Source of the DNA: an uncultured Nitrospirales bacterium
GTDB taxonomy: Bacteria > Nitrospirota > Nitrospiria > Nitrospirales > UBA8639
DNA length: 64,000 nucleotides
Direction of reading: 5' to 3'
NCBI GenBank assembly: GCA_958295805.1
Contig: OY282373.1
Span: 1,645,001-1,709,000 of the forward strand
How positions within the stretch are numbered: position 1 is the stretch's first letter; every line of letters starts with the position of its first letter. The notes under the pieces were generated by a model. That model saw only the letters and a list, made by a program, of their open reading frames with translations, was not told the origin of the DNA and did no database searches. A program made the position numbers and the translations under genes. This document shows positions 10,289 to 43,084 of this stretch, piece by piece.

Positions 10289-11494
10289 ATGGCGACCATC
10301 TTTCATACCATTGATCAGGCTATCAACGACGTGCGCGCCGGAAAATTCGTCATTTTGGTAGACGACGAAGACCGGGAAAACGAAGGTGACCTGGTGATGG
10401 CGGCCGAAGCCGTGACGCCCGAAGCCGTCAACTTCATGGCCACGCACGCCCGAGGCCTCATCTGTCTGGCTCTGACGGCCGAACGTGTCAACCAATTGCA
10501 GTTGCACCCGCAGACGTTGGACAACACCACGCCGTTCGGGACGGCGTTTACCGTGTCGATTGACGCGGCCCGTGACGTGACCACCGGGATTTCCGCGGCC
10601 GACCGGGCCACGACAATCCGCATGGCCGTGGATCCCGCCTGCAAACCCGCTGATTTCACCAGACCCGGTCACGTCTTTCCCCTACGCGCGCAGGACGGCG
10701 GAGTGCTGAAGCGGGCCGGTCAAACGGAAGGGTCCGTGGATCTGGCGCGCATGGCCGGGCTCTATCCGGCCGGCGTCATTTGTGAAATCATGAATGAGAA
10801 TGGAACGATGGCCAGAGTGCCGGACCTGATCGAAGTGGCGAACAAGCACGATCTGAAGATCATTACCATTAAAGATCTGATTCAATACCGGTTGGAGCGG
10901 GAAACCTTCGTGAAAAAATCCGTCAGCGCACAATTGCCGACCGTGTTTGGAAATTTTAATGCCTGGGTCTTTGAAAATGAACTCGACAGCGGGACACACG
11001 TAGCCCTGGTAAAAGGACGCATTGACGCCACGCCCACCCTCGTGCGCGTGCATTCCGGGTGTCTGACGGCGGACGTCTTCGGTTCGTTGCGGTGCGATTG
11101 TCGAGATCAACTCCATCGAGCCATGGAACTCATCGAAAAAGAAGGCAACGGCGTGTTGCTGTATCTCAATCAGGAGGGCCGAGGCATCGGGCTGCTGAAT
11201 AAAATCAAAGCCTATCACCTCCAGGACCAGGGAAGTGACACCGTGGAGGCCAATCTCAAACTCGGGTTCAAACCCGACTTGCGAGATTACGGCATCGGCG
11301 CTCAGATTTTGGTACGTCTCGGCTTAAAACAAATTCGTCTCATGACCAATAACCCGCGAAAAATCGTGGGGATTGAAGGGTACGGCTTGACGGTGGTGGA
11401 GCGGGTGCCCATTGAAACCAACCCCAAAGCAACGAACGTTCACTATCTCCGAACGAAAAAGTCCAAACTTGGGCACATTCTGAATAACGTCTGA
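10289..11494 (+). CDS. ribBA: Bifunctional DHBP synthase / GTP cyclohydrolase II
   Basis: RibBA makes both precursors of riboflavin. The N-terminal half forms 3,4-dihydroxy-2-butanone 4-phosphate from ribulose 5-phosphate, and the C-terminal half opens GTP. Residues 25-34 ([10 protein letters not shown]) and TRPGHVFPL near 124-132 are DHBP-synthase motifs. The zinc cysteines of GTP cyclohydrolase II are C258, C269 and C271, followed by EGRGIG at 296-301. At 401 residues it is full length. GGAG lies 5 bases before the ATG. It is followed at once by ribH, and no room is left for an FMN riboswitch between narK and ribBA. Confidence 0.97.
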
Positions 11495-11541
11495 TTCGTT
11501 CAACCTTGAATGACCGGGAACGGTCATCAACCGGCCCCATC

Positions 11542-12036
11542 GTGAAAACCGTAGAAGGAAATCTCAATGCCCGGCATCTGCAATTTGCCCTGGTGGTGAG
11601 TAAATTCAACGAATTTGTGACTAGTCGCCTGGAAGCCGGCGCGCTGGAAACCTTAAAAAAGCACGGGGCAGAAGACGAAAAAATTCAAATCGTCCGTGTT
11701 CCCGGGGCCTTCGAAATTCCACTCGTCGCCCGACAAGTAGCCGCCTCGAAACAATATGACGCCGTGATTTGTCTAGGCGCGGTGATTAAAGGAGAAACCG
11801 CGCATTTTGATTTAATCAGTACGGAAACGAGTCGAGGCATTGCGCAAGCCTCATGCGAGACGGGTATTCCCATCGTGTTCGGCGTTCTGACGACCAATAC
11901 TGCCGAACAAGCCGTGGCGCGAACAGGGACCACGGACGTTGACCGAGGCGCGGACGCCGCGCGTACGGCCATCGAAATGGCCACCCTTATGAAGGCGTTA
12001 CACGAAAAGGACAGAAAGACAACCGGGTTTCTGTAG
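11542..12036 (+). CDS. ribH: 6,7-dimethyl-8-ribityllumazine synthase
   Basis: RibH condenses the two RibBA-derived branches to lumazine, the immediate precursor of riboflavin. The protein has the family segments VVSKFNEFVTSRL, VPGAFEIPL, GAVIKGETAHFD and the C-terminal GADAARTAIEM. I place the start at GTG 11542 (VKTVEGNLNA), which gives 164 residues and matches typical N-termini. An in-frame TTG at 11506 is possible. Neither start has a strong Shine-Dalgarno. It lies 47 bases after ribBA and probably shares its transcript. Confidence 0.95.
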   Translation: MKTVEGNLNARHLQFALVVSKFNEFVTSRLEAGALETLKKHGAEDEKIQIVRVPGAFEIPLVARQVAASKQYDAVICLGAVIKGETAHFDLISTETSRGIAQASCETGIPIVFGVLTTNTAEQAVARTGTTDVDRGADAARTAIEMATLMKALHEKDRKTTGFL

Positions 12037-12049
12037 GCACTGCCTGCAA

Positions 12050-12652
12050 ATGTCCGCGAATACCACTGCCATGACCATACAGGAACGATCCGGAGATTCT
12101 TTGCCCAGCCGTCAACGAGAGCATCCACCTTCGTCATCCCCGCGAAACCCGTCCCCGACGTTTGTTATCGGGGAGCGGGAATCCAGGAATGATGATTCCT
12201 CGTCCGAATCTCGACAAGGATATACGCGACGCCACGCGCGCGAACTGGCGCTTCAGATTCTCTTTCAATGGGACTTTCACGGTTCGACCGAATGCGGGCT
12301 GGAACAATTCTGGTCGCAACGTCAGGCATCGACCCAAGTTCGAGAGTTTGCAGGGCAGTTGGTCAGCGGCGTCCAAACTTATCACGGTGAACTCGATGAT
12401 CTGATTACCGCCTATGCGAAAAATTGGACCATTGATCGGATGCCGCTCGTGGACCGAAACATTCTTCGACAAGCGATCTATGAATTGATCTGGGTGCCGG
12501 ACGTACCGGCAAAAGTCACGGTGAATGAAGCCATTGAATTAACCAAATGCTTTGCGGACGAAGAGACCGGACGATTCGTCAATGGCGTATTGGATCAACT
12601 CATCAAAACGGACCCGCGGCTGGAACAAAAACGCATGGCCTTGGCTCTTTAA
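12050..12652 (+). CDS. nusB: Transcription antitermination factor NusB with a repeat-derived N-terminal extension
   Basis: NusB binds boxA RNA with NusE in antitermination complexes, chiefly on rRNA operons. The conserved domain begins near residue 57 with YTRRHARELALQILFQWD and continues through VDRNILRQAIYELIW and FVNGVLDQL to the end. The ~56 residues before it are not part of the family. They include PSPTFVIGERESRNDD, which is the translation of a palindromic repeat found several times in this window (12132-12194). No in-frame start codon exists between the repeat and the NusB domain, so the extension must be translated or a non-standard start is used. It lies 13 bases after ribH. Confidence 0.9.
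   Translation: MSANTTAMTIQERSGDSLPSRQREHPPSSSPRNPSPTFVIGERESRNDDSSSESRQGYTRRHARELALQILFQWDFHGSTECGLEQFWSQRQASTQVREFAGQLVSGVQTYHGELDDLITAYAKNWTIDRMPLVDRNILRQAIYELIWVPDVPAKVTVNEAIELTKCFADEETGRFVNGVLDQLIKTDPRLEQKRMALAL
12132..12194 (+). repeat. Palindromic repeat (family R1) inside nusB
   Basis: The stretch contains CCCCGACGTTTGTTATCGGGG followed by AGCGGGAATCCAGG. The same unit occurs at 21661-21718 and, inverted, at 19771-19810. The inner arms pair as a hairpin in RNA. Here it is read in frame as part of NusB, so insertion occurred without loss of the reading frame. Confidence 0.8.
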
Positions 12653-12729
12653 TCGTCCTAGCACTGCGGACGGTGCTCTCCTTAGACCACGCAATTCAAA
12701 AGAGACCCCAACCATAAGAAATCCCTCTC

Positions 12730-14100
12730 ATGATTGACCGCTACACCTTGCCCCGCATGGGTGCAGTCTGGACTCAGGAACGCAAGTATACGGCCTGGTT
12801 GCAAGTGGAACTGGCTGCCTGCGAAGCACTGGAAGAAATTGGAGAAGTGCCCGAAGGCGTGGCGCGCCACGTCAAGCGCAAGATCAAGATCGATCCCGAC
12901 CGGATCGCAGAAATCGAGCGCGTGACCAAGCATGACGTCATTGCCTTTTTGGAATCGATCGCCGAACAGGCCGGTCCCAAAGCCCGACATTTGCACGCGG
13001 GACTGACCTCTTCCGACGTGTTGGATACCGGACTGGCCCTCCAATTAGTCGAGGCACAGGAAATCATCCTAGAAGATCTCGATGCCTTGTTGGACGTGCT
13101 CCATACGCAGGCACTCAAACATAAAGACACCGTCATGGTGGGCCGATCCCATGGGATGCACGGCGAACCCGTTTCCTTCGGGTTCAAGATGGCGATCTGG
13201 TACGAGGAATTTACACGTCAGCGCAAACGGTTGACGGCCGCGGGAGAGGACGTCGCCGTTGGAAAATTTTCCGGAGCCATGGGCACGTTCGCGCATGTGC
13301 CGCCGCGCGTTGAAAAAACCGCGTGTACAAAACTGGGATTACGACCCGCGCCCGTTTCGAACCAAGTGATCCAACGGGACCGCCACGCGGCGTTTCTGAG
13401 CACCTTGGCCTTGATGGCCGCCAGCGTTGAAAAAGTGGCCATGGAACTTCGTCACCTCCAGCGAACCGAAGTCCTGGAAGCCGAAGAATATTTCAGCCCC
13501 GGGCAAAAAGGGTCCTCGGCCATGCCGCACAAACGAAATCCCGTGGGCTCTGAAAACCTCTGTGGCCTTGCGCGAATCATTCGAGCCAACAGTCTGGCGG
13601 CGATGGAAAACGTCGCGCTCTGGCATGAACGAGACATCAGCCATTCCTCGGTGGAACGCGTTATTATCCCCGACGGCACGATTCTGATTGACTACATGCT
13701 CGTGCGTCTGACGAACCTCCTGAAACGGTTGGTGGTGTATCCCGAACGAATGCGCAAGAACCTGAACCTGACCGGAGGATTGATCTATTCCCAACGCCTC
13801 TTGTTGGCGTTGGTCAAGAAAGGCATCGAACGCAAAGCCGCCTATGAAGCGGTGCAGCGCAGCGCCGTGAAAACCTGGGACGGGCAGGGGAACTTTCAAG
13901 AACTGGTCGCCCGAGACCCGTTGATTGCCACACGACTCACTGCGGCGGAAATCCGCGCCTGTTTTGACCCGCAAGCCTACTTGCGTCACCTCGACCACGT
14001 GTACCGTCGGGTGTTTGGGCGAAGCGCAAGGTCCCGCAACGTGCCTGTCCGCGTGCTCCGCACGGGCAGGCAAAAACCTGGAAAGAAAAAGCGAACGTGA
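12730..14100 (+). CDS. purB: Adenylosuccinate lyase
   Basis: PurB acts twice in purine synthesis, cleaving SAICAR and adenylosuccinate to release fumarate. The fumarase-superfamily signature GSSAMPHKRNPV lies at about 261-272, and LTSSDVLDTG and GRSHGMHGEP are further active-site segments. The 456-residue protein is some 20 residues longer than usual. The extra tail (after VFGRSARSRN) is basic and is encoded by a stretch that can fold into a strong RNA hairpin at about 14043-14071. The stop codon TGA overlaps the purS ATG by one base, so purB, purS and purQ are translationally coupled. Confidence 0.96.
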   Translation: MIDRYTLPRMGAVWTQERKYTAWLQVELAACEALEEIGEVPEGVARHVKRKIKIDPDRIAEIERVTKHDVIAFLESIAEQAGPKARHLHAGLTSSDVLDTGLALQLVEAQEIILEDLDALLDVLHTQALKHKDTVMVGRSHGMHGEPVSFGFKMAIWYEEFTRQRKRLTAAGEDVAVGKFSGAMGTFAHVPPRVEKTACTKLGLRPAPVSNQVIQRDRHAAFLSTLALMAASVEKVAMELRHLQRTEVLEAEEYFSPGQKGSSAMPHKRNPVGSENLCGLARIIRANSLAAMENVALWHERDISHSSVERVIIPDGTILIDYMLVRLTNLLKRLVVYPERMRKNLNLTGGLIYSQRLLLALVKKGIERKAAYEAVQRSAVKTWDGQGNFQELVARDPLIATRLTAAEIRACFDPQAYLRHLDHVYRRVFGRSARSRNVPVRVLRTGRQKPGKKKRT

Positions 14101-19369: not shown

Positions 19370-19810
19370 AAACACCCCCCAAACGCCCGGTGGTGCCGGT
19401 CCTTGGGTGTCAGCCGGGCGAAAGACCCTTCTCAGGCGTGGGTCGATTTCGGCATGGCCGGATCGTCGAGAGAGGGAACCAGGTCCGGCCAGGCGGCCAG
19501 CACCAAGCTGCGAGCGCGCTTGAGATCGCTGACGCCCCCCTGTCTCGGCGGCCCCCGCCAGCCGCGGCACATCCCGGTGCTCCCCTCTCTGCCCCTGAGC
19601 CCCGAACGGTTCCCGGTCTGCGACGGTGTGGATCGCCATGACTTGGCGAAACAAGGCGCGGAGTGGTTGCGCATCCCGGCTTTGGCCATTATTCCCAGAA
19701 TGACAGAGGAGGGGAGAATGCGGCGGAGTGCGGAATGGCGGCGGCCATGCCATGAACGTGCACAGCATCACCCCTGGATTCCCGCTCCCCGATAACAAAT
19801 GTCGGGGATC
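19370..19810. repeat. Intergenic region ending in an inverted R1 repeat
   Basis: No recognisable gene lies between proA and the IS element, although long frames are open because of the high GC content. From about 19690 the sequence matches, inverted, the long repeat seen at 21661-21940 and 28358-28560. This includes the GTGCACGTTCATGG-like flank and the hairpin CCCCGATAACAAATGTCGGGG at 19788-19808. The IS30-type element begins within three bases of this hairpin. Confidence 0.6.
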
Positions 19811-20837
19811 TAAATTCACAAACGAAGTGCAACACCTTGCTAAGGTGTTGTCATGGGAACCCACTATCACCACCTCACCCTTGAAGACCGATGTGACATG
19901 GCCCGTCTACACGCCGACGGGCGCTCGCTCCGGCAAATCGCGGCAACTCTGGATCGCCCGCCATCAACCGTGGCTCGCGAGATGAAGCGCAATCGTTCCC
20001 GCATCCAGGGCTACCAGCCCCGCTATGCGGAGCAGCAGGCCCGCGCCCGCCGGTGGCGCGGCGCCAAGTTGGACCGCGATGCCCCCCTTCGCACCACAGT
20101 CCTCACCCACCTCCAACAGGGCTGGACCCCCGAGCAGGTGGCCGGGCGCCTCGCCCGCGACGCCGGTCGGTCGGTTATCTCCCACGAAACCATCTACCGC
20201 TTCCTCTACGCCCAGATCGCCCGGACGAAAACCTATGCCTGGCGCCACTATCTCCCTCACGCCAAAGCCACCCGCGGCCGCCGACGCACACGTCGCAGCC
20301 CCGCCGCCTTGATGGCTCACCGCCGCCCCCTCGCCGACCGCCCCGCCGCCGCCGCCGACCGCCAGACTCCCGGCCATTGGGAAGCCGATCTGATGCTCTT
20401 CCGCACCTACGGCCAAGCCGTCCTCACTCTCCACGAGCGCACCTCCCGCCTCCTCCTTGCCGTGCGCCCCCCGGGCAAAGCCGCCGCCCCCATCGCCCAC
20501 GCCCTCACCCACCTCCTCACCCCAATGCCCCCTCACGGCCGCCAGACCGTCACCTTCGACAACGGCACCGAATTCGCCTGCCATCACCACCTCCATGCCC
20601 TCGGCATTGAGACCTTCTTCTGTGACCCCTACGCCCCCTGGCAGAAAGGCGGCGTCGAGAACGCCATCGGCCGTCTGCGCCGCACGCTGCCCCGCAAAAC
20701 CGACTTGGCCACCCTGTCCGACCAGCGGTTTCATCACTTGGTTCATGCGTACAACCACACCCCGAGGAAATGCCTCGGGTATGCCACGCCCGCGGAGATT
20801 TTTATCCACCAAGTGTTGCACTTGAAATGTGAATCCA
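19811..20837 (+). mobile_element. IS30-family insertion sequence, complete copy
   Basis: The element is about 1.03 kb. Its ends are imperfect inverted repeats: left TAAATTCACAAACGAAGTGC and right (reverse complement) TGGATTCACATTTCAAGTGC, both continuing AACAC. One transposase gene fills it. Element ends were set from a second, deleted copy at 27654-28357, which has the same two termini. No target duplication is evident. The left end abuts an R1 hairpin. Confidence 0.88.
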
Positions 20838-21145
20838 CAGCGTGGGGGGGGGGGGGGGGGGGCTTGGGCTTGGATTGCTTGGCTGATCACGGCATTTTGC
20901 CCAGCACCATGAAGACTCGCCCCATGAAGCTGGCTCAGAAAGGGCCAGGGGGTCAGTGCCGGCTAGACGCGCCGCGGGGCGGCTGCGCGCGTGCCCCCGT
21001 CCCGTTTCGTCAATGGCTCGGGGAGCCGGGCCGGCTGGGCGTGCCGCGGGGCGGCTGCGCGCGTGCTCCCGTCCCGTTTCGTCGATGGCTCGGGGAGCCG
21101 GGCCGGCTGGGCACTCTGCGGGGCGGCTGCGCGCTGGCCCGCTGA
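19853..21145 (+). CDS. IS30-family transposase, reading through past the element end
   Basis: The N-terminal part holds the helix-turn-helix LTLEDRCDMARLHADGRSLR and SRIQGYQPRYAEQQA typical of IS30. The DDE catalytic domain shows HWEADLM (D), TFDNGTEF (D) and WQKGGVENAIGRLRR (E). The element-encoded part ends at about HQVLHLKCEST (20837). The frame then runs through a 19-base G tract and a 72-base tandem repeat before stopping at 21145, so roughly 100 C-terminal residues are not transposase. Whether the frame truly continues depends on the exact length of the G tract. The catalytic residues are intact, so the element could be active. Confidence 0.85.
   Translation: MGTHYHHLTLEDRCDMARLHADGRSLRQIAATLDRPPSTVAREMKRNRSRIQGYQPRYAEQQARARRWRGAKLDRDAPLRTTVLTHLQQGWTPEQVAGRLARDAGRSVISHETIYRFLYAQIARTKTYAWRHYLPHAKATRGRRRTRRSPAALMAHRRPLADRPAAAADRQTPGHWEADLMLFRTYGQAVLTLHERTSRLLLAVRPPGKAAAPIAHALTHLLTPMPPHGRQTVTFDNGTEFACHHHLHALGIETFFCDPYAPWQKGGVENAIGRLRRTLPRKTDLATLSDQRFHHLVHAYNHTPRKCLGYATPAEIFIHQVLHLKCESTAWGGGGGGLGLDCLADHGILPSTMKTRPMKLAQKGPGGQCRLDAPRGGCARAPVPFRQWLGEPGRLGVPRGGCARAPVPFRRWLGEPGRLGTLRGGCALAR
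20844..20862 (+). repeat. Homopolymer of 19 G
   Basis: An uninterrupted G19 run lies six bases past the right end of the IS element. Its length sets the reading frame of the downstream transposase fusion. Tracts of this length are prone to slippage in cells and to sequencing error, so the count should be treated with care. Confidence 0.9.
20961..21143 (+). repeat. 72-base GC-rich tandem repeat, about 2.5 copies
   Basis: Units start at 20961, 21033 and 21105 (the last is partial). The period of 72 bases equals 24 codons, so both strands stay open: plus reads RGGCARAPVPF(R)WLGEPGRLG units and minus reads AQPARLPEPxTKRDGxTRAA units. Units differ by only a few bases, which suggests recent expansion. 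Confidence 0.88.
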
Positions 21146-21376
21146 ACACCGCCCAGGCCGCCTCGAACCAACCCCGTCATGGCGGGCGTCATCCCTTGGC
21201 ACCGTCATTCCTTGGCCTTCGGCTTCGCGCCGTCGGGTTGCCGGTTCGTCGGCCGGCCTGGGCGACGTTCCTGACGTTCCGATCGTACGCAACCCGTCTT
21301 TGCGGACGTGGCCGACGGACTCCGAAATCCAGTGACGCACCTTCTGTACGGCTTGAATGACGGGATGGTCCCTCAT
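20963..21376 (-). CDS. Possible small protein with repeat-encoded Pro/Arg-rich tail
   Basis: An ATG at 21376 is preceded by AGGGGAA at fair spacing. The first ~35 residues (MRDHPVIQAVQKVRHWISES and on) look like a genuine helical protein start. The rest becomes low-complexity, Arg/Ala/Pro-rich and is read from the 72-base tandem repeat. I do not recognise a family. It may equally be a decayed gene fragment running into repeat DNA. Confidence 0.25.
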   Translation of the reverse strand: MRDHPVIQAVQKVRHWISESVGHVRKDGLRTIGTSGTSPRPADEPATRRREAEGQGMTVPRDDARHDGVGSRRPGRCSAGQRAAAPQSAQPARLPEPSTKRDGSTRAAAPRHAQPARLPEPLTKRDGGTRAAAPRRV

Positions 21377-21589
21377 GGCGGTTTCCCCTAGAAGTTCCAA
21401 CGACATGCTCAACCTCGGCCCAAACAGACCAACCATACTCTTAACGCGCCGAATTAGCAAGGTGGCCGTCCACGTCAGAAGCATGTCGCATGTGTGGAGG
21501 GAAGCACCAGGTACAAAGCGTCTCCCGCCGGGTCAGCAGGCGTCAAGTCGTGCAAGACACAGGCACTGACGGTGTCGGGCGGGCAGTTC

Positions 21590-21960
21590 CTTCCCCTCAC
21601 CCCAGCCCTCTCCCGCAAGGGGAGAGGGAGCACGCTCCCCGTCCTTCCCGCCCCTCTCTGTCCTTCCCGCGAAGCCTGTCCCCGACATTTGTTATCGGGG
21701 AGCGGGAATCCAGGGGTGCTGCCGTACACGTTCATGACGTGGCCGCCGTCATTCTCCCCTCCTCTGTCATTCTCCCTCCTCTGTCATTCTGAGCGAAGGG
21801 AAGAATCTGGCTTCCCGTTTGCCCAGGCATAACGCCGGAGGCGTGGCACAGAGGATCGAGTGCGGGCATTTCCTCCCCCTCACCCCGGCCCTCTCCCGCA
21901 AGGGGAGAGGGAGGCAGAGGGGGATCGGGGAGGCAGAAGGGGGTCGGGGAGGGAGAGGGC
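21590..21960 (+). repeat. Cluster of dispersed palindromic repeats (R1, R2, R3)
   Basis: The block joins three repeat families. R3 is the CCTCACCC...CTCTCCCGCAAGGGGAGAGG hairpin, at about 21596-21630 and again at 21887-21912. R1 lies at 21661-21718. R2 (TCATTCTGAGCGAAGGGAAG) lies near 21785. The same order of R1, flank, R2 and R3 recurs at 28358-28550, so these form one composite intergenic element. No gene is supported here. Confidence 0.75.
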
Positions 21961-22007
21961 TTTCCCTCCATTGTGACTCACCCGCCCCGTCCATTCCGCC
22001 CGCCGCT

Positions 22008-22130
22008 GTCATTCTGAGCGAAGCGCCTGCCCTGAGGCTCGAAGGGAAGAATCTCGTTCGTTACGGGAAGAGAGAAGGGCACTGGCGAGCGGGAAGGGCA
22101 AAGCAGATTCTTCGCTTTGCTCAGAATGAC
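22008..22130 (+). repeat. R2 hairpin element, left of the autotransporter gene
   Basis: The element begins GTCATTCTGAGCGAAGCGCC and ends TTCGCTTTGCTCAGAATGAC, so its two ends are inverted copies of each other. A version in the opposite orientation lies at 24722-24823. The pair brackets the autotransporter protease gene. The structure resembles a MITE or large REP unit. Confidence 0.75.
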
Positions 22131-22166
22131 AAAACGTTTGCTCAGGGCGACGTTGGGCAAGGGTCT

Positions 22167-24599
22167 CTAAAATGCAAATCGCCAACCGGCCAGGAGGCGG
22201 AGCCCGGGGGGGGCGTCGGCGGAATGGCCGGGATGGCGCATCCAGGTGGCGGCGAAGCGCAGTTCGCCGCGGTCGGTGAGCGGGTGGCGCCATTGAGCCG
22301 AGACGTTCATCTGCCGGCCAGACGGCGTCAGGTCGGCCGCCAAGGACGAACGCAGGACCGCGCCGCCTTTGGTCCGGCCGATGGGAACGGAGAGGGTCGC
22401 CCGGCCCTCTTCCACGCGCAACGGCTGCGAAACCGAAACCTGGACCGACCCGCCGTCTGTCAGCAGCCGAGTGGCGTGAAGCGCAAACGCGCTGGTGGTA
22501 AGGGAGGACATCCGGGCGATCATCCCGCCGCGAAGACGCGGGATCGCCGTGCCCAGTTCGGCGTCCGCAGAAAGCCGCCACGTGCCCACCTCGAACCCCG
22601 TCTCGATCCCCGCAAACGCGGCATCGGCCGAAAGCGAGCCGAACGCCCCGGCAGCCGCGGTGCCCAGCAGCGTGCCCCGTTCGTTCAGCCAGCCGGCGCG
22701 GAAGCCCACGGGGACGTCAAAAGGCCGCCACGACAGCGCGGCCCCCGATGCCGGCGTCCGGCCCGCAAAACCGGACGTCGTAAACGCGGTGGCCGCCACG
22801 CCGTTGGCCCCCGTCAAGGTCAGCGTGGTCGCATTTCGGGCAAGCACGAAATGACCACCCTCGACGCCAGTCGGAGTCTCCAGAAAGCCAAGCCGCAGTC
22901 GGCCGTAGCCGAGATCCTGCTCAACCGCGCCGCCCACGCGACCCGGCGTAAACGTCGTCAACCGGCCTCCGACCCATTGCCGGATCGGGGCATCGTCCAT
23001 CAACTCATAAAGGCGCAGCAGCGACGACGGAACGGGGGTGCTCCCCGTCAAATCAGTCAGCCTGAACCAGAACGGGGCACCAAGGCCATCGAACGCGGCG
23101 AGTTCCTGCCCGGCCAGTGACTGTCCCAAGGCGTCGCCAAAGGCTCCACCCAGCCGGAGACCGGTCAATCGCAGGCCGATGCCGCCGTCGGAAACCGTGG
23201 CGCCGCCGGCGACCATGGTGCCGCCAACCGGGCGAGTCGCGGCGGCAAGGTTCATCATGCCCTGGCCGTAAATATGACGCTCCTGATACTTGCCGCCTTT
23301 GTTCGCGGTGGCGAAAAGCCGCGTCACCAGATCCGTGTTCGAAAGCTGGTCACGGAAAAGCTGTTTCATGATGGCCAGCCCACCGGCAACCATCGGCGCG
23401 GCAAAAGACGTGCCGCCCGCCCCTGAAGTGAACCCTCTCGCTCCGGGTCGACCGCCGGATGGTCCGAAATAAGCCACCCGTACCAAGTGGCCGGGGGCCG
23501 CGAGACACCAATCGGCGGCAATGCCACAGCGGTTGGAAGAATCGGCAATATCGCCGTTCCGATCAACCGACACCACGGCGATGGAGTGCCCGCGCAAAGC
23601 TTCGATTCGCGCGACCAAGCCCGGAAATACTTCAACTGATCTCGCGTTGATCGTTGCCCCCATCGTTCCCGCCACGCAATTCGCAGTCCCAAGTGTACAG
23701 AGTCGACCATGGGCATTGCCCGCGGCCCAGACGAGAATCGTTTTTTCCGCACGCCCCCGTTGCTCCAATGCGGCAATCGTCTGACCGAAATTGCTCCTGA
23801 GATCTGCGGCACGGTAGTCCTCGATGATCCCCTCGACGCCGAAACTCAAATTCAAGATATCAACGTCCTGCCTGAGGACCTGGGTAAAGAAATTCGCCTC
23901 GCTTGGATCATCAGTCCTAAGACTGTCCAGTCTCACCGGGTTATAAGTGCCGCCCCCCGTGTTCAGCGGAATCGCAAACATCTTCAGATCGGCACCCGGA
24001 GCAACGCCGGAAAAACCGCCGTCAAGGAAGCCCGGGGTCGGCCTGGCGGCGATGATGCTCGCAACCGCGGTCCCGTGAGAAAATGTTCCACCCCGTTCAT
24101 CAACGGCACGACCAAGGAACTCTTCCGTGATGCGCGTGCCGGTGAAAGATGGATGATCCTGATCGATACCAGTATCGATCAGCCCGACGGTCACGCCCGC
24201 GCCCGGCTCCACGGTCCCTCGGGCAAGTTCAAGGTGCGCCCAGGCTTGATCCGCCTTGACGGCACCCAACGCCCATTGATTAGAAAACCCCGTCCGGGTC
24301 CTTTCAGTCTGAGCGATCCTGTTACTCTCTTGGTCATAGCGTTCCGGCGAAATGCAGCCGAAGGTAGCCGTCTGAATGCACCTGGGAGCGGGGTTAGGAG
24401 GACTGGGGGGTGGAGGATCAGGATTCGGACTAGGCCCAACGCCACCCCCGCCCCCACATCCCGAGAAGAGCAGCCCGACGAGCAGCAGGGTAGCCATACC
24501 CCGCAGTTGTTGGATCCAACGGGGATTGGCATCAAACAGAAGAACGATGGCCCGATTTGAATAAAGCACGTCGTGCTGACTCTCCATCATGAACTTCAT
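22167..24599 (-). CDS. Subtilisin-type (S8) serine protease autotransporter with lipoprotein-like N-terminus
   Basis: The 810-residue protein carries a subtilase domain with catalytic D142 (VGLIDTGID), H175 (FSHGTAVAS) and S398 (GGTSFAAPM). From about 540 to the end it reads as a beta-barrel with alternating hydrophobic strands and a final aromatic residue (RLLAGWRFAF), as in type V autotransporters. The N-terminus has a hydrophobic stretch with the lipobox LFSGC (C48), then GGGGG and a Pro-rich linker. The start may be the ATG at 24599 or an internal ATG (codon 35) just before the lipobox. The gene is flanked by inverted R2 elements and is likely horizontally mobile. Confidence 0.85.
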   Translation of the reverse strand: MKFMMESQHDVLYSNRAIVLLFDANPRWIQQLRGMATLLLVGLLFSGCGGGGGVGPSPNPDPPPPSPPNPAPRCIQTATFGCISPERYDQESNRIAQTERTRTGFSNQWALGAVKADQAWAHLELARGTVEPGAGVTVGLIDTGIDQDHPSFTGTRITEEFLGRAVDERGGTFSHGTAVASIIAARPTPGFLDGGFSGVAPGADLKMFAIPLNTGGGTYNPVRLDSLRTDDPSEANFFTQVLRQDVDILNLSFGVEGIIEDYRAADLRSNFGQTIAALEQRGRAEKTILVWAAGNAHGRLCTLGTANCVAGTMGATINARSVEVFPGLVARIEALRGHSIAVVSVDRNGDIADSSNRCGIAADWCLAAPGHLVRVAYFGPSGGRPGARGFTSGAGGTSFAAPMVAGGLAIMKQLFRDQLSNTDLVTRLFATANKGGKYQERHIYGQGMMNLAAATRPVGGTMVAGGATVSDGGIGLRLTGLRLGGAFGDALGQSLAGQELAAFDGLGAPFWFRLTDLTGSTPVPSSLLRLYELMDDAPIRQWVGGRLTTFTPGRVGGAVEQDLGYGRLRLGFLETPTGVEGGHFVLARNATTLTLTGANGVAATAFTTSGFAGRTPASGAALSWRPFDVPVGFRAGWLNERGTLLGTAAAGAFGSLSADAAFAGIETGFEVGTWRLSADAELGTAIPRLRGGMIARMSSLTTSAFALHATRLLTDGGSVQVSVSQPLRVEEGRATLSVPIGRTKGGAVLRSSLAADLTPSGRQMNVSAQWRHPLTDRGELRFAATWMRHPGHSADAPPGLRLLAGWRFAF

Positions 24600-24721
24600 G
24601 TTCTCTCGCTTTCTTTGCGCGTCTCCATTATGATGACCCTTTCTATCATGCTGACCAAAGCATCCCGAAAGACGTCCTATACCAAGGTCTCCGTCATGTA
24701 AACTGTCATGCTGACCAAACT

Positions 24722-24823
24722 GTCATTCTGAGCGAAGCGAAGAATCTGCTTTTCTCTTCCTTGGACCGAAGGTACGAGATTCTTCCCTTCGAGGCTCAGG
24801 GCAGGCGCTTCGCTCAGAATGAC
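24722..24823 (-). repeat. R2 hairpin element, right of the autotransporter gene
   Basis: This is the inverted counterpart of the element at 22008-22130. It runs from GTCATTCTGAGCGAAGCGAA to CGCTTCGCTCAGAATGAC, and its ends pair with each other. The first ATG of the following large gene (24819) lies inside its last bases. It can fold into a long hairpin between the two divergent genes. Confidence 0.75.
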
Positions 24824-26699
24824 AATAAATCAACCCCGTCCACGTCTTGACGCACGAGCAACGACCACGAGTGCCCCTGTGAAAAACCCTTCTACCGTAT
24901 TTGCCGAAATCCTTCAAACGCCGGGCGCGCTCACGCTCAACGCCGACCACGTGGCGAAGTGGTTGCCGGACCGCGTGACCTGGAAGCAACTCGCCTCCGG
25001 GCATCTCGTCGTGTATGGCCCGTTGGGACGTCGAATCCTGCTGACCGATCCCGACGGGCACCCGCTGCACGAATGCGAGTGGGACGAACGGGGAGACGGC
25101 ACCGTCCATCTGGTATCGGCCCGAGTCTATCTGGATTGGGGCCAATGGGTGGGCATCAAACCCAACGGATTGATCAACGCCATGAACCTGGATCTCTCGA
25201 CCCGACCCGGCTGGCAAACCCTGACGCGGCAGGATCTCCGTCTCATGGCGGCCCAAGCCATGGGCGTTGCGGTGAAAGAAGTCGAATTTTTTTACACGGA
25301 CGACGACCTGCTCCTCGATCCGACGGGGCACGCCGTGATTCGCCAACGAAAAGACGCCCTGTACGTGCTGGAGGACGGCACCTGGGAACGCGCGCGCTTC
25401 ATGTCCTGCATGAGCGCAATGCACTGGGCACGCATTGATTACTTACCGGTGGTGGAACTCTTTCAATCCTTGTTGCCTGGGACCGGCAGCGCGACGTTTG
25501 AATTGATTCGCGGCCTCTACGACGATCAAAACCCGCACAATCCGCGACCGCTTCACTACCGGGGCATCCCAACCTATCCCTCGGAAGCGGCCTTCGGGCT
25601 GTTCAGCAATTTTTTCACGGCAACGCATCCGGGGGCGGAAAGTCCGGTGGCCGTATTCATGGACCCCCCGCGGTCGCATCAAGTCGAATGGCGTCCCCAT
25701 CCGCACCCCCCGCTGCGCTACGTGGACCCGACGCATCAGCTTAGTCTGACGGTGAAACACGGCACGGTCTGCAAGGCAACCAAAATGGACGACGCCAGCG
25801 GCCTCCCGTTTGTCGCGCCGAATCAACAAGGGTTCGCACCCTGCGGCAAACGGATCGTCCCGCGCGCCGGGCGTCTCTCCCTGTCCGACCACAAGAACGC
25901 CTACGACGTGGCCGTGCAGCCGCACTGGGGCGTCACCCAATCGTCGGCGGACCCGCCTCCGACGGCAAAGAGCGAAGACCGGCCGGCACCAATCACAACG
26001 TCGTGGGAAGACGTCTTCCCCGACGGCCCGCCCCGGGTGTCCCCGCGGGAGGCCTACGCCGCGGTGTTGCTCTATCCGGAAGACGAGACCCGGATTGACG
26101 AACTGCCCAGCCAACCCTTTGTCGCGGATTTCTGGACGGACCTCATCGAACAGGACCAACAACTGGCGTGGCACGTGGAACGGGCCGCGCAAATCCTCAT
26201 TCACGGCTTCGACGCGGTCATCGGCACGTTGCTCACGCTTGACCGGCCACGCTCCACCACGGCCCAACGCTTCACCATTGTGTATGCGGCTGAAGCCCAC
26301 GCCCAGAAGCAGGCGCAGACCTTATGGAATCGACTTGCGCGCGGGCAGCGGGGGGAGCGGCTGGAGGCCTATCGATTCATGCCCGATGACGCGAACCATC
26401 ACGGCGCCTATGAAGCCACCTATGATTTGGTGTACCGCTGGATGCCTTTTGCTTCCTACCGGGACCACGCAAACCTTCGGGATCGTCTGCAACGACTCAG
26501 CGCGGCGCTCCGGCCCGACGGCCTGGCGTTGCTGGCGGGACCGGAATCAATGTCGTCCCTCATGCCCGGTTTCTCATTGGAAACCATCGTCAAGGAGTCG
26601 GCCTCCCGGGTACGATCCTTTATCATGCACCGAGCGATCCTACCCCAGGCCACGCTGCATCCCGACCTCCGGATATGGATACTCAAAAAATCATCGTGA
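24819..26699 (+). CDS. Large protein of unknown function with a methyltransferase-like C-terminus
   Basis: The 626-residue product is soluble, with no signal peptide or membrane segment. Residues up to ~330 contain segments such as VYLDWGQWVGIKPNG and FELIRGLYDDQNPHNPRPLH, which I cannot assign. The last ~200 residues resemble a degenerate Rossmann-fold methyltransferase, with a late strand reading LRPDGLALLAGP after a helix rich in Arg/Leu. That comparison is inference. The first ATG lies in the R2 repeat, and an in-frame GTG at 24879 (VKNPSTVFAEIL) may be the true start. Codon use, including frequent ACGT, is like the housekeeping genes, so it may be an old resident of this region. Confidence 0.65.
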   Translation: MTINQPRPRLDARATTTSAPVKNPSTVFAEILQTPGALTLNADHVAKWLPDRVTWKQLASGHLVVYGPLGRRILLTDPDGHPLHECEWDERGDGTVHLVSARVYLDWGQWVGIKPNGLINAMNLDLSTRPGWQTLTRQDLRLMAAQAMGVAVKEVEFFYTDDDLLLDPTGHAVIRQRKDALYVLEDGTWERARFMSCMSAMHWARIDYLPVVELFQSLLPGTGSATFELIRGLYDDQNPHNPRPLHYRGIPTYPSEAAFGLFSNFFTATHPGAESPVAVFMDPPRSHQVEWRPHPHPPLRYVDPTHQLSLTVKHGTVCKATKMDDASGLPFVAPNQQGFAPCGKRIVPRAGRLSLSDHKNAYDVAVQPHWGVTQSSADPPPTAKSEDRPAPITTSWEDVFPDGPPRVSPREAYAAVLLYPEDETRIDELPSQPFVADFWTDLIEQDQQLAWHVERAAQILIHGFDAVIGTLLTLDRPRSTTAQRFTIVYAAEAHAQKQAQTLWNRLARGQRGERLEAYRFMPDDANHHGAYEATYDLVYRWMPFASYRDHANLRDRLQRLSAALRPDGLALLAGPESMSSLMPGFSLETIVKESASRVRSFIMHRAILPQATLHPDLRIWILKKSS

Positions 26700-26739
26700 C
26701 CAGGCACTGACGGCCTTTTGAATCTCCTCCGTCATTCCC

Positions 26740-26820
26740 CCCTCTTTGGCCCCCTCTCCCCTCTTCTCTACTCCCTCTCCCCTCGCGGGAGAGGCCCGGG
26801 GTGAGGGGAAAGAAGTGAGG
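26740..26820 (+). repeat. R3 hairpin repeat
   Basis: The stretch contains CTCTCCCCTCGCGGGAGAGG followed by CCCGGGGTGAGGGG, the inverse of the R3 units at 21596 and 28513. It lies between the unknown large protein and the coiled-coil gene, and may act as a terminator for the former. Confidence 0.65.
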
Positions 26821-26867
26821 CAAAAAGATTGACACTGCAGCGCACCCCAGAATAAACTTCACAAACC

Positions 26868-27404
26868 ATGAGCACCCTCATTTATGACACCCACAAATTT
26901 ATCACCAAGATGACCAACGCGGGCATGCCGCAACCACAAGCCGAGGTCTTGGCCGAATCCCACGTGGAATTGATGGAGACCACGCTAGCCACAAAGCAGG
27001 ACTTGAAAGACCTCAAAACCGAACTCACCGGCGAGATGAAAAACCTCGAAGGTAAGCTCACCGGCGAAATGAAAGACCTCAGAGCCGAACTTACCAGCGA
27101 GATGAAAGACCTCAGAGCCGAGTTCACCAGCGAGATGAAAGATCTCGAAGGCAAGCTCACCAGCGAAATGAAAGACCTCGAAGGCAAGCTCACCAGCGAG
27201 ATGAAAGACCTCAGAGCCGAGATCACCAGCGAAATGAAAGACCTCGAAGGCAAGCTCACCGGTAAGATGAAAGACCTCAGAGGCGAGATCGATAAAGCAA
27301 CCCTCAAGACTATCGGAATCATCACCGCGATTATGGTTGTCTTGTTGACCGCGAGCAATGCCGTGCTGATAGTCTTCCTGAGATACCTACTCGCAGCCCC
27401 TTAA
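26868..27404 (+). CDS. Membrane-anchored coiled-coil protein with 11-residue repeats (DUF1640-like)
   Basis: The first ~45 residues (DTHKFITKMTNAGMPQPQAE and on) match the start of bacterial DUF1640/CCDC90-like proteins. A coiled coil built of nearly identical 11-residue units follows (EMKDLRAELTS / EMKDLEGKLTS, about ten copies), then one C-terminal membrane segment (IGIITAIMVVLLTASNAVLI). The encoding DNA repeats with a 33-base period, so copy-number changes keep the frame. Two relatives lie at 40203 and 43491. The function of bacterial members is not known to me. Confidence 0.75.
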   Translation: MSTLIYDTHKFITKMTNAGMPQPQAEVLAESHVELMETTLATKQDLKDLKTELTGEMKNLEGKLTGEMKDLRAELTSEMKDLRAEFTSEMKDLEGKLTSEMKDLEGKLTSEMKDLRAEITSEMKDLEGKLTGKMKDLRGEIDKATLKTIGIITAIMVVLLTASNAVLIVFLRYLLAAP

Positions 27405-27653
27405 TGAAGCGAAGCCCCGCACTCCAATCTTCACCGAGTAACTTCACATCCGCCTTGCACCCGCCGAGCAACACACCCGGCTTGCCCACGTCGAGAAAGT
27501 CAGGGATGCCGTAGACAGCGTCGACGTGGAGACACCGCGTCAGGCTCAATACCTTCAAGCAGACTTCATAATCTCTCTCCCCCCGGAAGAGGGCCGGGGT
27601 GAAGGAGAATGAGCATTGCCTCCCTCCGTCATTCCCGCTTCCTCCCGTCATTG
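27405..27653. other. Unassigned stretch with an open minus-strand frame
   Basis: On the minus strand this segment reads without stops into the remnant transposase tail. It includes VDAVYGIPDFLDVGKPGVLL and DVKLLGEDWSAGLRFIKG, which look protein-like. I do not recognise the family and see no start codon with a ribosome binding site. An R3-like hairpin (CTCTCCCCCCGGAAGAGGGC) lies at about 27574-27595. Confidence 0.3.
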
Positions 27654-28357
27654 TGGATTCACATTTCAAGTGCAAGACTTGGTGGATAACAATCTCCGCG
27701 GGCGTGGCATACCCGAGGCACTTCCGCGGGGTGTGGTTGTAGGCATGAACCAGGTGATGAAACCGCTGGTCGGAGAGGGTCGCCAAAGCGGTTTTGCGGG
27801 CAGCGTGCGGCGGCTTTGCCCGGGGGTCGGTCGGCGAGGGGGCGGCGGTGAGCCATCAAGGCGGTGGGGCTGCGGCGTTTGCGCCGGCGGCCGCGGGTGG
27901 CTTTCGCGTGAGGGAGATAGTGCCGCCACGCATAGGTTTTCGTCCTGGTGATCTGAGCGTAGAGGAACCGGTAGATGGTTTCGTGAGAAAGAACCGGTCG
28001 CCCGGCGTCGCGGGCGAGGCGCCCGGCCACCTGCTCGGGGGTCCACCCCTGCTGGAGGCGGGTGAGGACCGTGGTGCGTAGCGCAGCGTCGCGGGTCAGC
28101 CGGGCGCCGCGCCACCGGCGGGCGCGGGCCTGCTGCTCGGCATACCGGGGCTGGTAGCCCTGGGTGCGGGAGCGATTGCGCTTCATTTCGCGAGCCACGG
28201 TTGATGGCGGGCGATCCAGAGCTGCCGCGATTTGCCGGAGCGAGAACCCGGCGGCGTGTAGGCAGGCCAAGTCACATCGGTCTTCCAGGGTGAGGTGGTG
28301 AGAGTGGGTGCCCATGACAACACCTTAGCAAGGTGTTGCACTTCGTTTGTGAATTTA
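27654..28357 (-). mobile_element. Internally deleted IS30-family copy
   Basis: Both ends match the complete element at 19811-20837, but only ~704 bases remain. The N-terminal DNA-binding part of the transposase is intact (LTLEDRCDLACLHAAGFSLR to RRPLADRP). Most of the DDE core is missing in two deletions, with a short PGKAAA stretch kept between them, and the final ~45 residues (TLSDQRFHHLVHAYNHTPRK) are present in a shifted frame. It cannot encode an active transposase but keeps ends that a full copy could act on. It is also inserted in an R1-type repeat, whose flank continues at 28358. Confidence 0.88.
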
Positions 28358-28640
28358 GAGAATCCAGGGATGATGCTATGCACGTTCACGGCGTGGCCGC
28401 CGCCATTCTTCCTCCTCTGTCATTCTGAGCGAGGGGAAGAATCTGGCTTCCCGTTTGCACGGGCACGACGCCGGGGGCAGGGGATAGAGGATCGAGTGCG
28501 GGCATTTCTTCCCCTCACCCCAGCCCTCTCCCGCAAGGGGAGAGGGAGGAAGAGTGGGGCTTCTCCCGCCATTGAATCACTCCTATCATTCCTGGCTCCC
28601 TCTTGTCATTCCCGCGAAGGCGGGAATGACAAGGGATGGC
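28358..28640 (+). repeat. Composite R1-R2-R3 repeat and a perfect hairpin
   Basis: After the IS end, GAATCCAGGGATGATGC resumes the R1 unit. R2 (TCATTCTGAGCGAGGGGAAG, ~28421) and R3 (~28513-28550) follow, in the same order as at 21661-21912. At ~28607-28635 lies a perfect hairpin, TTGTCATTCCCGCG / CGCGGGAATGACAA-like arms around AAGG. No gene is supported in 28358-28700. Confidence 0.72.
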
Positions 28641-39336: not shown

Positions 39337-40137
39337 ATGCCTTCCGCCACGTCCATTTTGACGTTACTCACCGACTTCGGGGAACGCGACCACTTCGTTG
39401 CCAGCATGAAAGGGGTGATTCTGGGCATCAATCATCAGGCGCGCATCATCGACGTCTCCCATCACGTGACCCCGCACTCCATTGACGAAGCCGCGTTTCT
39501 CTTGAACGCCTGTTATCACTATTTTCCCGACGGGACCGTCCACGTCGTCGTGGTGGACCCGGGCGTCGGGTCATCACGCCGCGGGTTACTCGTCACAACG
39601 TCGCGATTTTTCTTTATCGCCCCGGACAACGGCGTGCTGACGCCCGTGTTCGAAAACGAACGGTCCGTAGAAGTTCGGCAGATCGAAAATCGTCAATTTC
39701 GCTTGGATTCGGAAGGGGCCACCTTTGACGGCCGGGATTTATTCGCCCCGTCCGCGGCTTGGCTGACGCGAGGACAGACGCCTGGAGCCTATGGCCGCTT
39801 GATCTCTGATTATGAAACGCGACCGATTCCCAAACCTGAGGTGCGGGAAGGAATCCTTCACGGTCGCGTTGCCCACGTTGACCGATTCGGCAACGCGACG
39901 ACCAACGTCACGCTCGCGGACGTTCACTCACTCCAAGCCGTCACCAAGCGTACAAGCATTTCGTTTGCAATCGGCGGCGTCACGATCAACGCGCTGAAAA
40001 CGCACTATGAGCAGGGGTCCAAAGAACAACCCGAAGCCCTCATCAACAGCAACGGGTATCTGGAAGTGTTTCTGAAAGAAGCGAGCGTCGCCGAAACGTT
40101 CAACCTCAAAGCCGGCGAGACGCTGGAGATCCAGTGA
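39337..40137 (+). CDS. SAM hydrolase / S-adenosyl-L-methionine hydroxide adenosyltransferase (DUF62)
   Basis: Members of this family split SAM to adenosine and methionine using water or hydroxide, and are related to fluorinases. The full-length 266-residue protein starts LTLLTDFGERDHFVASMKG and has VDPGVGSSRR, APDNGVLTPV and FDGRDLFAPSAAW. The last 113 codons, from LISDYETRPIPK, are repeated almost unchanged at 41835-42175 and 43085-43425. This is the only complete copy. It lies four bases after greA. Confidence 0.93.
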   Translation: MPSATSILTLLTDFGERDHFVASMKGVILGINHQARIIDVSHHVTPHSIDEAAFLLNACYHYFPDGTVHVVVVDPGVGSSRRGLLVTTSRFFFIAPDNGVLTPVFENERSVEVRQIENRQFRLDSEGATFDGRDLFAPSAAWLTRGQTPGAYGRLISDYETRPIPKPEVREGILHGRVAHVDRFGNATTNVTLADVHSLQAVTKRTSISFAIGGVTINALKTHYEQGSKEQPEALINSNGYLEVFLKEASVAETFNLKAGETLEIQ

Positions 40138-40202
40138 GAGTCGGTAGATTACAACGTAACGTTGATGGTATAATCTCCGCCAACGTCGGGATTGTTTAAG
40201 TT

Positions 40203-40730
40203 ATGACACCACCAAGTACCCTCATCCTTGACACTCATGCGTCCATCCACGAATTGGTGAAGGCTGGCATGCCCGAACGCCAGGCCGAAACCGTCGTGCG
40301 TCAACAGGCGAGGCTGCTCGAACAGAATCTCGCCACCAAACACGACATCGAAACGGTAAAACACGACATCGAAACGGTAAAACACGACATCGAAACGGTA
40401 AAGCGCGACATCGAAACCCTCCGGCAAGAAACCAAACACGACATCGAAGTGCTCCGGCAAGAAACCAAACACGACATCGAAACGGTAAAACACGACATCG
40501 AAACGGTAAAGCGCGACATCGAAACCCTCCGGCAAGAAACCAAGACCGACATCGAAACCCTCCGGCAGGAAACCAAAGCTAACATCGAAACCCTCCGACA
40601 CGACGTGGAAATATTACGGCAGGAAACCACGGCCCGCATCGAAACCGCGAAGGTTGATCTCATTAAATGGATGTTCGGTCTCGGCCTTGGTATCGCCAGT
40701 CTGGCGGTTGCCGCGGACAAGCTTTTCTGA
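40203..40730 (+). CDS. Coiled-coil membrane protein with variable repeats (DUF1640-like), copy 1
   Basis: The 175-residue product begins LILDTHASIHELVKAGMPER, like the protein at 26868. It then consists of 7- and 11-residue coiled-coil units (KHDIETV, RDIETLRQETK) and ends with one membrane segment, WMFGLGLGIASLAVAADKLF. Its first 50 and last 30 residues are nearly identical to the copy at 43491, while the coiled coil is 32 residues longer. This points to recent duplication with in-frame repeat change. Confidence 0.75.
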   Translation: MTPPSTLILDTHASIHELVKAGMPERQAETVVRQQARLLEQNLATKHDIETVKHDIETVKHDIETVKRDIETLRQETKHDIEVLRQETKHDIETVKHDIETVKRDIETLRQETKTDIETLRQETKANIETLRHDVEILRQETTARIETAKVDLIKWMFGLGLGIASLAVAADKLF

Positions 40731-40759
40731 CCACGTCCACGAACCAAGCGCATCATCGC

Positions 40760-41834
40760 TCAAGTTGTTCCGATTTTCTCCATCAACTGCCGCCGCACGT
40801 CCTTGCCATTGACGTTTCTCTCCACGACGATGAACAAACCCTGACCATTGCTTCTTTGCTCCCAAAGTGCGCCGATCGTCCGCTTTTCGGTGGTATCCGA
40901 TCCCTCTGCGATATGGGCGCCTTTGTATTCCACAATAAGAAACCGTCCATCGTTCAGGAGGGCAACGAAGTCGGGGTAGAATCTACCCGTTGCCGTCGGC
41001 AGCCGGAATGACTCAGGATGGCGGGCGACGTTGCGAATCCAGTACTTCACGTCCGGCAAGCGGTCAAGGGCCTGCGCACATTGGACTTCTTCACCGTCGA
41101 TCGCGCCGTCGAAGGCGGGCACGTTGTCGGGGCCAAGAAAATGCTTGCCCGGCTTCCAGTGTCCACGATGCCGCCGTTCATCACCGTACATACCGTCTTT
41201 GAAAGCAAAGGCCGCGTCGAAAGAAACCTCGACTTTTGCCGCGGGCGCAAAGAGACCGTGCTGATAGGCCGTCTCCCGTTCCTGCCGTCGAACGTCGTCA
41301 AGCTTGTTCGCAATTTTTCGAGCCAGCAAGAACTTGCAACGCATGAGCGCAGAGACATGGAGCGTGCGCACGTGAATCAGGTGTCCGACGAGGTCACGCA
41401 GCCATTTCAGCAGTTCGTTCTGGCGAAGGTCCGGCCCACGTACCTGTCCGTCCAGCCAGAGGGTTAACGCTTCGGGAGTCCAGCCTTCCACCGCAATGTT
41501 CAACGCAAGCTGTTCCTGCTCGTTGATGAATTGATGAGTCACACGTTTTCCGTCAATGTCGATTTCAAAGCTGCGTGCCGTTTCCCTGATCATGAATTCG
41601 TCTTCGTCCAACTTGGCCGGGTAATACAGCAGCGACCAGTCGTGATCCTCCACGAACAAGTCCGTATCAGCGAACTCCAGCTTGCCCTGAATTTCGCACG
41701 TGAGGCGCGGCACGTTGAACCGCTCACCCCGCTTGGCGGGAGACAACGACGCCTTGACCGTCGTTCGATGGTTCTCGACAGCCTCGGCAAACGCCGGACG
41801 TTTGGCCTCCGGGACCACCGCGAGCATCGCCGTT
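40760..41834 (-). pseudogene. Truncated type III restriction subunit: C-terminal nuclease half, copy 1
   Basis: The minus-strand frame matches the last ~355 residues of the Res protein at 43952-46591 almost exactly. It includes the nuclease motif YPDFVALLNDGRFLIVEYKG and ends MEKIGTT. The helicase half is absent. At its 5' side the frame runs on into antisense SAM-hydrolase DNA (to 41965), which would supply a false N-terminus. The nuclease part itself is intact, so a free-standing product is conceivable. Confidence 0.85.
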
Positions 41835-42175
41835 GCTTGATCTCCGATTATGAAACGCGACCGATTCCCAAACCCGAGGTGCGGGAAGGAATCCTTCACG
41901 GTCGCCTTGCCCACGTTGACCGATTCGGCAACGCGGCGACCAACGTCACGCTCGCGGACGTTCACTCACTCCAAGCCGTCACCAAGCGTACAAGCATTTC
42001 GTTTGCAATCGGCGGCGTCACGATCAACGCGCTGAAAACGCACTATGAGCAGGGGTCCAAAGAACAACCCGAAGCCCTCATCAACAGCAACGGGTATCTG
42101 GAAGTGTTTCTAAAAGAAGCGAGCGTCGCCGAAACGTTCAACCTCAAAACCGGCACGACGCTGGAGATTCGATGA
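41835..42175 (+). pseudogene. SAM hydrolase 3' fragment, copy 2
   Basis: The fragment encodes the last 113 residues of the SAM hydrolase (DYETRPIPKPEVREGILHGR onward). Its final residues differ slightly (KTGTTLEIR instead of KAGETLEIQ). The catalytic N-terminal two-thirds is missing, and the 5' end is joined to antisense res sequence. Confidence 0.85.
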
Positions 42176-42223
42176 GGGCCCGACGCAACACCGTAGGAAA
42201 ATGGGCACTTGTGCAGCACCGAC

Positions 42224-42619
42224 TCACTGCTTCCTCAACTCCGGAAAATACGTGGGATAGAACCCACGATCTCGCGTAAGAAAAGTATCGGCCAGAGTAA
42301 CGGCATGGGCGCCAATGAGGAAATCAGAAATGATTCGACTCCTTGGCCCGCCGTCTTGGCGGTATCGCAACCAGCGCAAGCCTGCTTCGTAGGCGATGGT
42401 GGTATTGATGGGGGAGATGGTCACGCTGATTTGGCTCAATGCCTCGTCAAGTTTAGTGCGGTCATTGAAAGCTGGAACCAATTCCGCGTACACGATGTCG
42501 CAGATGAGAATGACTCCACGGTCATAGGCGTCTCGAAGTCTTTCCTTTGACGTGGGCCCGTGGCGCTCGTCAGGGAGGAACACATCCAGTAAGACACTTG
42601 TGTCAACGGCGGTGATCAC
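42224..42619 (-). CDS. vapC: PIN-domain toxin VapC
   Basis: VapC toxins are RNases that cut tRNA or rRNA. The 131-residue protein starts with AVDTSVLLDVF, holding the first acidic residue. It has further conserved acids in IVYAELVPAF and SDFLIGAHA, and near the end LTRDRGFY. Its ATG overlaps the stop of vapB by four bases. It sits in the gap of tandem copy 2. Confidence 0.88.
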   Translation of the reverse strand: MITAVDTSVLLDVFLPDERHGPTSKERLRDAYDRGVILICDIVYAELVPAFNDRTKLDEALSQISVTISPINTTIAYEAGLRWLRYRQDGGPRSRIISDFLIGAHAVTLADTFLTRDRGFYPTYFPELRKQ

Positions 42620-42831
42620 CTTCCGCGAATATCTTTAATATAATCGTCGGTGTTCCCACTGCGACCCAGAATGGCGTACAACCGCTCCACCGGATGATTC
42701 GAAGCCGTCCGTTTTCGGATAAGCAGACCATGATTGGTCGGAGTAATCTCAACTTCGACGTTGCAATTCATGCCGAAGCGGTCCCTTAGTTGCTTGGGGA
42801 TGGTAATTTGTCCTCGTTCCGAGATACGCAT
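42616..42831 (-). CDS. vapB: AbrB/SpoVT-type antitoxin VapB
   Basis: The 71-residue protein begins MRISERGQITIPKQLRDRFG, a clear AbrB-type swapped-hairpin DNA-binding domain. The C-terminal part should bind VapC. The ATG at 42831 has GAGGAAG upstream; the longer frame to 42891 lacks a better start. Such antitoxins usually repress their own operon. Confidence 0.88.
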   Translation of the reverse strand: MRISERGQITIPKQLRDRFGMNCNVEVEITPTNHGLLIRKRTASNHPVERLYAILGRSGNTDDYIKDIRGR

Positions 42832-42920
42832 GTCTTCCTCGCATGAATGACGGTTGCATGAAATCATACTGCGCTTATCACCGCAAGGCAAGAATATCGG
42901 GTGACGTACCCCCGTTTAGG

Positions 42921-43084
42921 CAAACTCCAGCTTGCCCTGAATTTCGCACGTAAGGCGCGGTACGTTGAACGGCTCGCCCCGCTTGGCGGGAGACAACGAC
43001 GTTTCGACCGTCGTTCGATGGTTCTCGACAGCCTCGGCAAACGCCGGACGTCTGGCCTCCGGGACCACCGCGAGCATCGCCGCC
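42921..43084 (-). pseudogene. Short internal fragment of res, copy 2
   Basis: The ~55 codons encode AMLAVVPEARRPAFAEAVEN through EIQGKLEFA. They are closer to copy 1 than to the complete res gene, which reads AILATVPEAERQMFANAVEQ at the same place. The fragment is fused at one side to the vapB upstream region and at the other to SAM-hydrolase DNA. Confidence 0.8.

Follow-up and report, generated by a model that had tools for sequence, protein, structure and literature searches.

A CGTC-type REP-like repeat lies in frame near the start of nusB in a Nitrospirales genome and is very probably translated

A 55-nucleotide palindromic repeat, here called R1, lies in frame between the first start codon and the NusB domain of nusB in a Nitrospirales genome. 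We interpret the locus as a REP-like insertion into nusB that is read through as a tolerated passenger, a reading to which we assign a probability of about 0.82. A CGTC-tagged REP-like element, multiplied in this lineage, would have moved into nusB near its 5' end, past the start codon and ahead of the domain, with the overall insert length keeping the nusB frame. Ribosomes starting at position 12050 or 12071 would then read through the repeat, yielding a NusB with a tail about 33 to 39 residues longer, 19 of them repeat-encoded. Such an insertion would be tolerated because the tail is already variable at this point in NusB of this genus, and the repeat would persist as a passenger in that tail. 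Most likely it is neutral, doing little harm or good.

The window, that is, the whole stretch of 64,000 nucleotides analyzed, corresponds to bases 1645001 to 1709000 of a single-contig genome (G000) of 2,904,372 bases with an estimated completeness of 99.85%; positions below are those of the window unless a genome coordinate is given. The nusB reading frame (12050..12652, plus strand) encodes 200 amino acids, including PSPTFVIGERESRNDD, and its NusB domain occupies residues 62 to 186 (12233..12607, equal to G000:C1:1657233-1657607; Pfam NusB, E 1.2e-37). The 5' neighbor in the same direction (11506..12036, plus strand) is presumably ribH, for lumazine synthase, and we take the gene after nusB to be purB; both names come from sequence knowledge, that of ribH without a family search. 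A scan of window positions 11000 to 13000 against Rfam returned no known RNA family at E ≤ 1.

The core of the repeat spans 12132..12186 on the plus strand and falls in nusB codons 28 to 46, which read SSSPRNPSPTFVIGERESR; likeness to some other copies continues to 12194. A sequence-only reading of this DNA had placed a palindromic repeat in frame between the first ATG and the NusB domain, as is borne out here. The repeat peptide it gave is indeed present in the nusB frame, although its final NDD lies just outside the core. Read from the sequence, the element opens with the tag CGTC (12132-12135), followed by the 5' arm of an outer stem, ATCCCCGC (12136..12143; consensus ATTCCCGC, with one mismatch in nusB), the two arms of an inner hairpin, TCCCCGA (12152..12158) and TCGGGGA (12168..12174), the 3' arm of the outer stem, GCGGGAAT (12175..12182), and a CCA tail (12183-12185), all on the plus strand. 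Compared over 54 nucleotides with the consensus built from the other 26 copies, the nusB copy differs at three positions, one of which disrupts an outer-stem pair. A candidate target-site duplication was rejected because the left and right flanks do not resemble one another (94% of 1,000 shuffles aligned as well).

A DNA search of the genome with the repeat returned 48 places at E ≤ 10, of which 38 were at E ≤ 0.001, and the best other copy was 94% identical over 62 nucleotides (E 4.9e-21); the nusB repeat is therefore not a chance match. Thirty of the 48 places were examined as 3-kb loci, and the 18 weaker ones lay in ten short stretches or in the same loci. The family comprises 27 near-full-length copies, that of nusB included, three truncated copies (L029, L031, and L032, left out of the 27-copy comparison), and four with a longer loop, which surfaced as split or half matches. 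These last four (L123 to L126; G000:C1:364600-364780, 412380-412500, 907300-907430, and 1744000-1744100) carry an extra loop segment resembling a third nested hairpin. Without the nusB copy, the remaining 26 near-full copies have the consensus GTCATTCCCGCGAAACCTGTCCCCGACATTTGTTATCGGGGAGCGGGAATCCAG, from which they diverge at 0 to 7 positions; this consensus has an 8-bp outer stem and a 31-nt loop holding a 7-bp inner stem, so that the earlier description of the repeat as multicopy and palindromic holds. Read forward, the consensus is free of stops in each frame, and one of its three reverse frames is open as well; forward insertions of suitable length would therefore be readable.

A 30-nt core, allowing up to two mismatches, was found in only 2 of the 395 genomes searched in the phylum, with 25 matches in this genome and one in a same-genus sister (G007). 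Perfect palindromes of the form ATTCCCGC...GCGGGAAT, by comparison, occurred in all 14 genomes of the genus (this one and 13 sisters), with 108 here and 4 to 139 in the sisters; a control pattern gave 0 matches, except for 4 per strand in G009. Among the palindromes listed, those of the sisters have different loops. Since the outer-stem palindrome is genus-wide but other loops occur in the sisters, the palindrome appears to be old and the R1 loop form to have expanded in this lineage. The highest count belongs to G008, whose 139 palindromes, among those listed, mostly share the loop type TCAACTCACT or its complement; judged by these loops, the outer stem expanded separately in that sister. A link to a transposase was considered and found unsupported: the only Y1_Tnp match in the genome had no ATTCCCGC or GCGGGAAT arm within its 3.3-kb locus. 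The word "selfish" in the earlier description thus finds no backing in a repeat-linked transposase in this genome.

Ahead of the NusB domain, in-frame ATG, GTG, or TTG codons occur only at 12050, 12071, and 12101, all 5' of the repeat, and none occurs between the repeat and the domain, in agreement with the sequence-only reading. The other near-cognate codons listed in frame were ATA at 12077, before the repeat, and ATC at 12167, inside it, while CTG at 12245 and ATT at 12257 fall within the conserved domain. The first ATG (12050..12052, plus strand) lies 13 nt past the ribH stop. The second (12071..12073, plus strand), also before the repeat, is an equally possible start and aligns with the nusB ATG of G008, which itself overlaps the ribH stop. 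No obvious Shine-Dalgarno sequence precedes either 12050 or 12071. Because all canonical starts precede the repeat, the sisters lack it, the domain evolves under purifying selection, and nusB is single, R1 is very probably read into the N-terminal tail of NusB.

The comparison with sister genes indicates where the repeat entered. Matches to nusB were obtained in 39 of 41 genomes, and 30 nusB loci were compared, including that of the window. The repeat was absent from nusB in all 13 same-genus sisters, a comparison that the sequence-only reading had proposed. In these 13, to which the codon counts are confined, 31 to 34 codons separate the first in-frame ATG from the FQ[WC]DFH motif, versus 71 codons in the window's nusB, or 64 if counted from 12071. 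Between the ribH stop and the first nusB ATG, 12 of the 13 have -4 to 16 nt, and G002 has 54 nt. The flank to the left of the repeat aligned without gaps over 50 nt with the start of nusB in G008, placing 12071 on its ATG, and none of 300 shuffles scored as well. For the right flank, strong alignments were obtained with G002 and 11 other sisters but not with G008 or L047, a locus outside the genus. Both flanks match sister nusB, and the repeat therefore interrupts formerly coding sequence. Relative to its relatives, the N-terminal tail of the window's NusB is some 33 to 39 residues longer, 19 of which come from the repeat; a further 14 to 20 codons or so (e.g., SLPSRQREHPP), their number varying with the start chosen, are not accounted for by the repeat.

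A four-motif search of both strands of the 30 nusB loci matched the 5' end of nusB only in the window's own gene, so that the same extension, sought elsewhere as the earlier reading had suggested, was found at none of the 29 other loci. The remaining matches lay upstream of ribH in five sisters and, in one further instance, downstream of nusB. In each of these five sisters (L034, L037, L038, L039, and L043, of 13 same-genus genomes) the gene row is the same, and a short CGTC-type palindrome of canonical form, its loop 4 nt long, precedes ribH, about 740 to 840 nt before the FQ.DFH motif of nusB.

The NusB domain is under purifying selection, as 13 pairwise comparisons of 129 codons gave dN of 0.17 to 0.21 and dS of 0.73 to 2.72. 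The genome holds one NusB and one further match in a 531-codon frame, which we take to be RsmB. An AlphaFold model of NusB built with 29 sequences had a mean pLDDT of 79.3. From residue 61 onward, ten-residue blocks mostly reached 85 to 97, with block 81 to 90 at 78, while residues 28 to 50 fell below 50, a value that partly reflects the scarcity of aligned sequences in the tail. The repeat residues are thus placed in a predicted unstructured part of NusB.

Two other readings accept the repeat as genuine. According to one, which we regard as unlikely, the translated repeat has been co-opted, and NusB expression or function is tuned either by the extra protein tail or by a hairpin that the mRNA forms about 80 nt from the start of the gene. 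The position of the repeat, early in the gene and adjoining ribH, would suit such a role, as would the folding energy of the repeat RNA alone (-24.9 kcal/mol) and the 94% identity that it still shares with another copy while in frame. Within its 91-nt context, however, the fold was only modestly better than those of shuffled sequences (z -1.80; 8 of 200 as good), the nusB copy has an outer-stem mismatch and a fold unlike that of the consensus, and sister nusB genes manage without the repeat. According to the other, translation begins at a non-canonical start after or inside the repeat, which would then be 5' untranslated. There is precedent for this in the available portion of PMC3733652, where it is cautioned that many N-terminal REPs of other species may fall outside the true gene and stay untranslated, and published cases are often doubted on the grounds that translation could start downstream. 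That caution rests on downstream starts, and such starts are absent here: no ATG, GTG, or TTG is found from the repeat to the domain, the frame is open throughout, and the left flank is homologous to coding sequence of sister nusB. We therefore consider an untranslated repeat highly improbable.

An assembly or chimera artifact is the least credible explanation. The genome is a single, nearly complete contig, and both flanks of the repeat align with sister nusB. Moreover, the nusB copy departs from the consensus in its own way, at three positions, and was therefore not pasted from another locus seen. Insertion of a REP-like element followed by read-through as a tolerated passenger remains the reading that we favor.

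As set out in the available text of Di Nocera et al. (2013, PMC3733652), CGTC REPs are defined by the tag, an 8- to 9-bp stem, a 4- to 5-nt loop, and a CCA tail; the stem opens with AT in positions one and two, the tag may also read TGTC or CCTC, and other loop lengths are allowed in some species. R1 shares the tag (CGTC in nusB, TGTC or CGTC in most other copies), the 8-bp stem beginning with AT (ATTCCCGC/GCGGGAAT in the consensus), and the unpaired CCA tail (GGGAATCCA), but its loop is 31 nt long and holds a nested 7-bp hairpin. It is therefore called CGTC-REP-like, with an enlarged loop. CGTC REPs are numerous and lie mainly outside genes; R1, too, is multicopy with occasional copies in genes. 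Its Nitrospirales host lies outside the five phyla named for CGTC REPs in the portion of PMC3733652 available, which does not contain the word Nitrospira; the RepRanger table, as far as PMC12306157 was available, includes Nitrospirota genomes. RAYT-mobilized GTAG REPs are likewise short, palindromic, and dispersed, but they bear a different tag and their Y1 transposase is flanked by the same REP, an arrangement not found in the 3.3-kb locus of the one Y1 match in this genome.

The parallel that the sequence-only reading drew with Rickettsia palindromic elements (RPEs) is reinforced by family resemblance, since the CGTC-tagged superfamily that R1 resembles includes RPE-4, RPE-6, and dRS3, with Neisseria dRS3 and Rickettsia RPE-6 placed in CGTC-1 (PMC3733652, in part). 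RPEs are described, in the available text of a 2024 review (PMC10969869), as in-frame gene insertions of about 150 bp in Rickettsia conorii. R1 is shorter, but in nusB it is also a palindromic repeat in frame inside a conserved gene, and the open frame and purifying selection on the domain are consistent with an apparently functional product. Nearly half of the first-reported RPEs lay in genes, whereas R1 has one clear and one possible such copy among 30 loci; by analogy, it seems to work like an RPE in nusB alone as a clear case.

The possible second copy emerged from the 48 ORFs of at least 100 amino acids that overlap a repeat around the 29 other loci. Of the 20 scanned, two matched Pfam families, one at L012 (an FGE-sulfatase tail, scoring under the curated cutoff) and one at L027 (an htrA-like protease). 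In the latter gene (L109; G000:C1:2772479-2774116, repeat at G000:C1:2772563-2772616), which lies behind an rpiA-like gene, R1 and a second repeat are in frame before a membrane segment. There is a TTG inside the repeat, and canonical starts between the repeat and the linker to the protease domain occur only within the membrane segment. Sister htrA N-termini appear to differ, and the repeat is not visible in them among the same-genus genomes listed. Because its start is uncertain, this gene is only a possible second translated REP. A broader proposal, that a nested-hairpin CGTC-type REP recently spread in one Nitrospirales lineage supplies N-termini to conserved genes (nusB and possibly the htrA-like gene), is doubtful; if true, proteins would gain new starts and tails from such repeats, which might also play a part in expression.

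REPs have been described within many genes, those for DNA repair and for tRNA pseudouridine synthases among them, in the available part of PMC3733652. The nusB repeat is therefore a fresh instance of a known phenomenon rather than unusual in kind, as had been supposed, and general understanding of REPs or NusB is unchanged by it. No report of a repeat in nusB was found in the literature, judged by title or opening abstract. The case is nevertheless an unusually clear one for an N-terminal REP, with no canonical downstream start and 13 sister genomes with a repeat-free site. With it, the range of RPE-like insertions would come to include a transcription factor encoded once in a Nitrospirales genome; it also suggests that the NusB tail tolerates insertions.

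Unlike RPEs, most R1 copies seem to sit in repeat-rich stretches where no gene is recognized. Two further copies lie in the window, one outside any recognized gene (L024, 21660..21721, plus strand) and one truncated (L029, 19766..19808, minus strand). Several short repeat families are densely packed at 19696-28550, among them an inverted pair of 549 nt whose members lie 7.5 kb from each other, and tandem arrays with periods of 30 and 33 nt occur at 48943-49406 and 26971-27333, respectively. At 39794-45023, three near-identical stretches of 300 nt accompany short, duplicated genes encoding coiled-coil repeats of 11 residues (DIETLRQETK type), which adjoin two copies of a helicase-like gene, one fragmentary and one longer.
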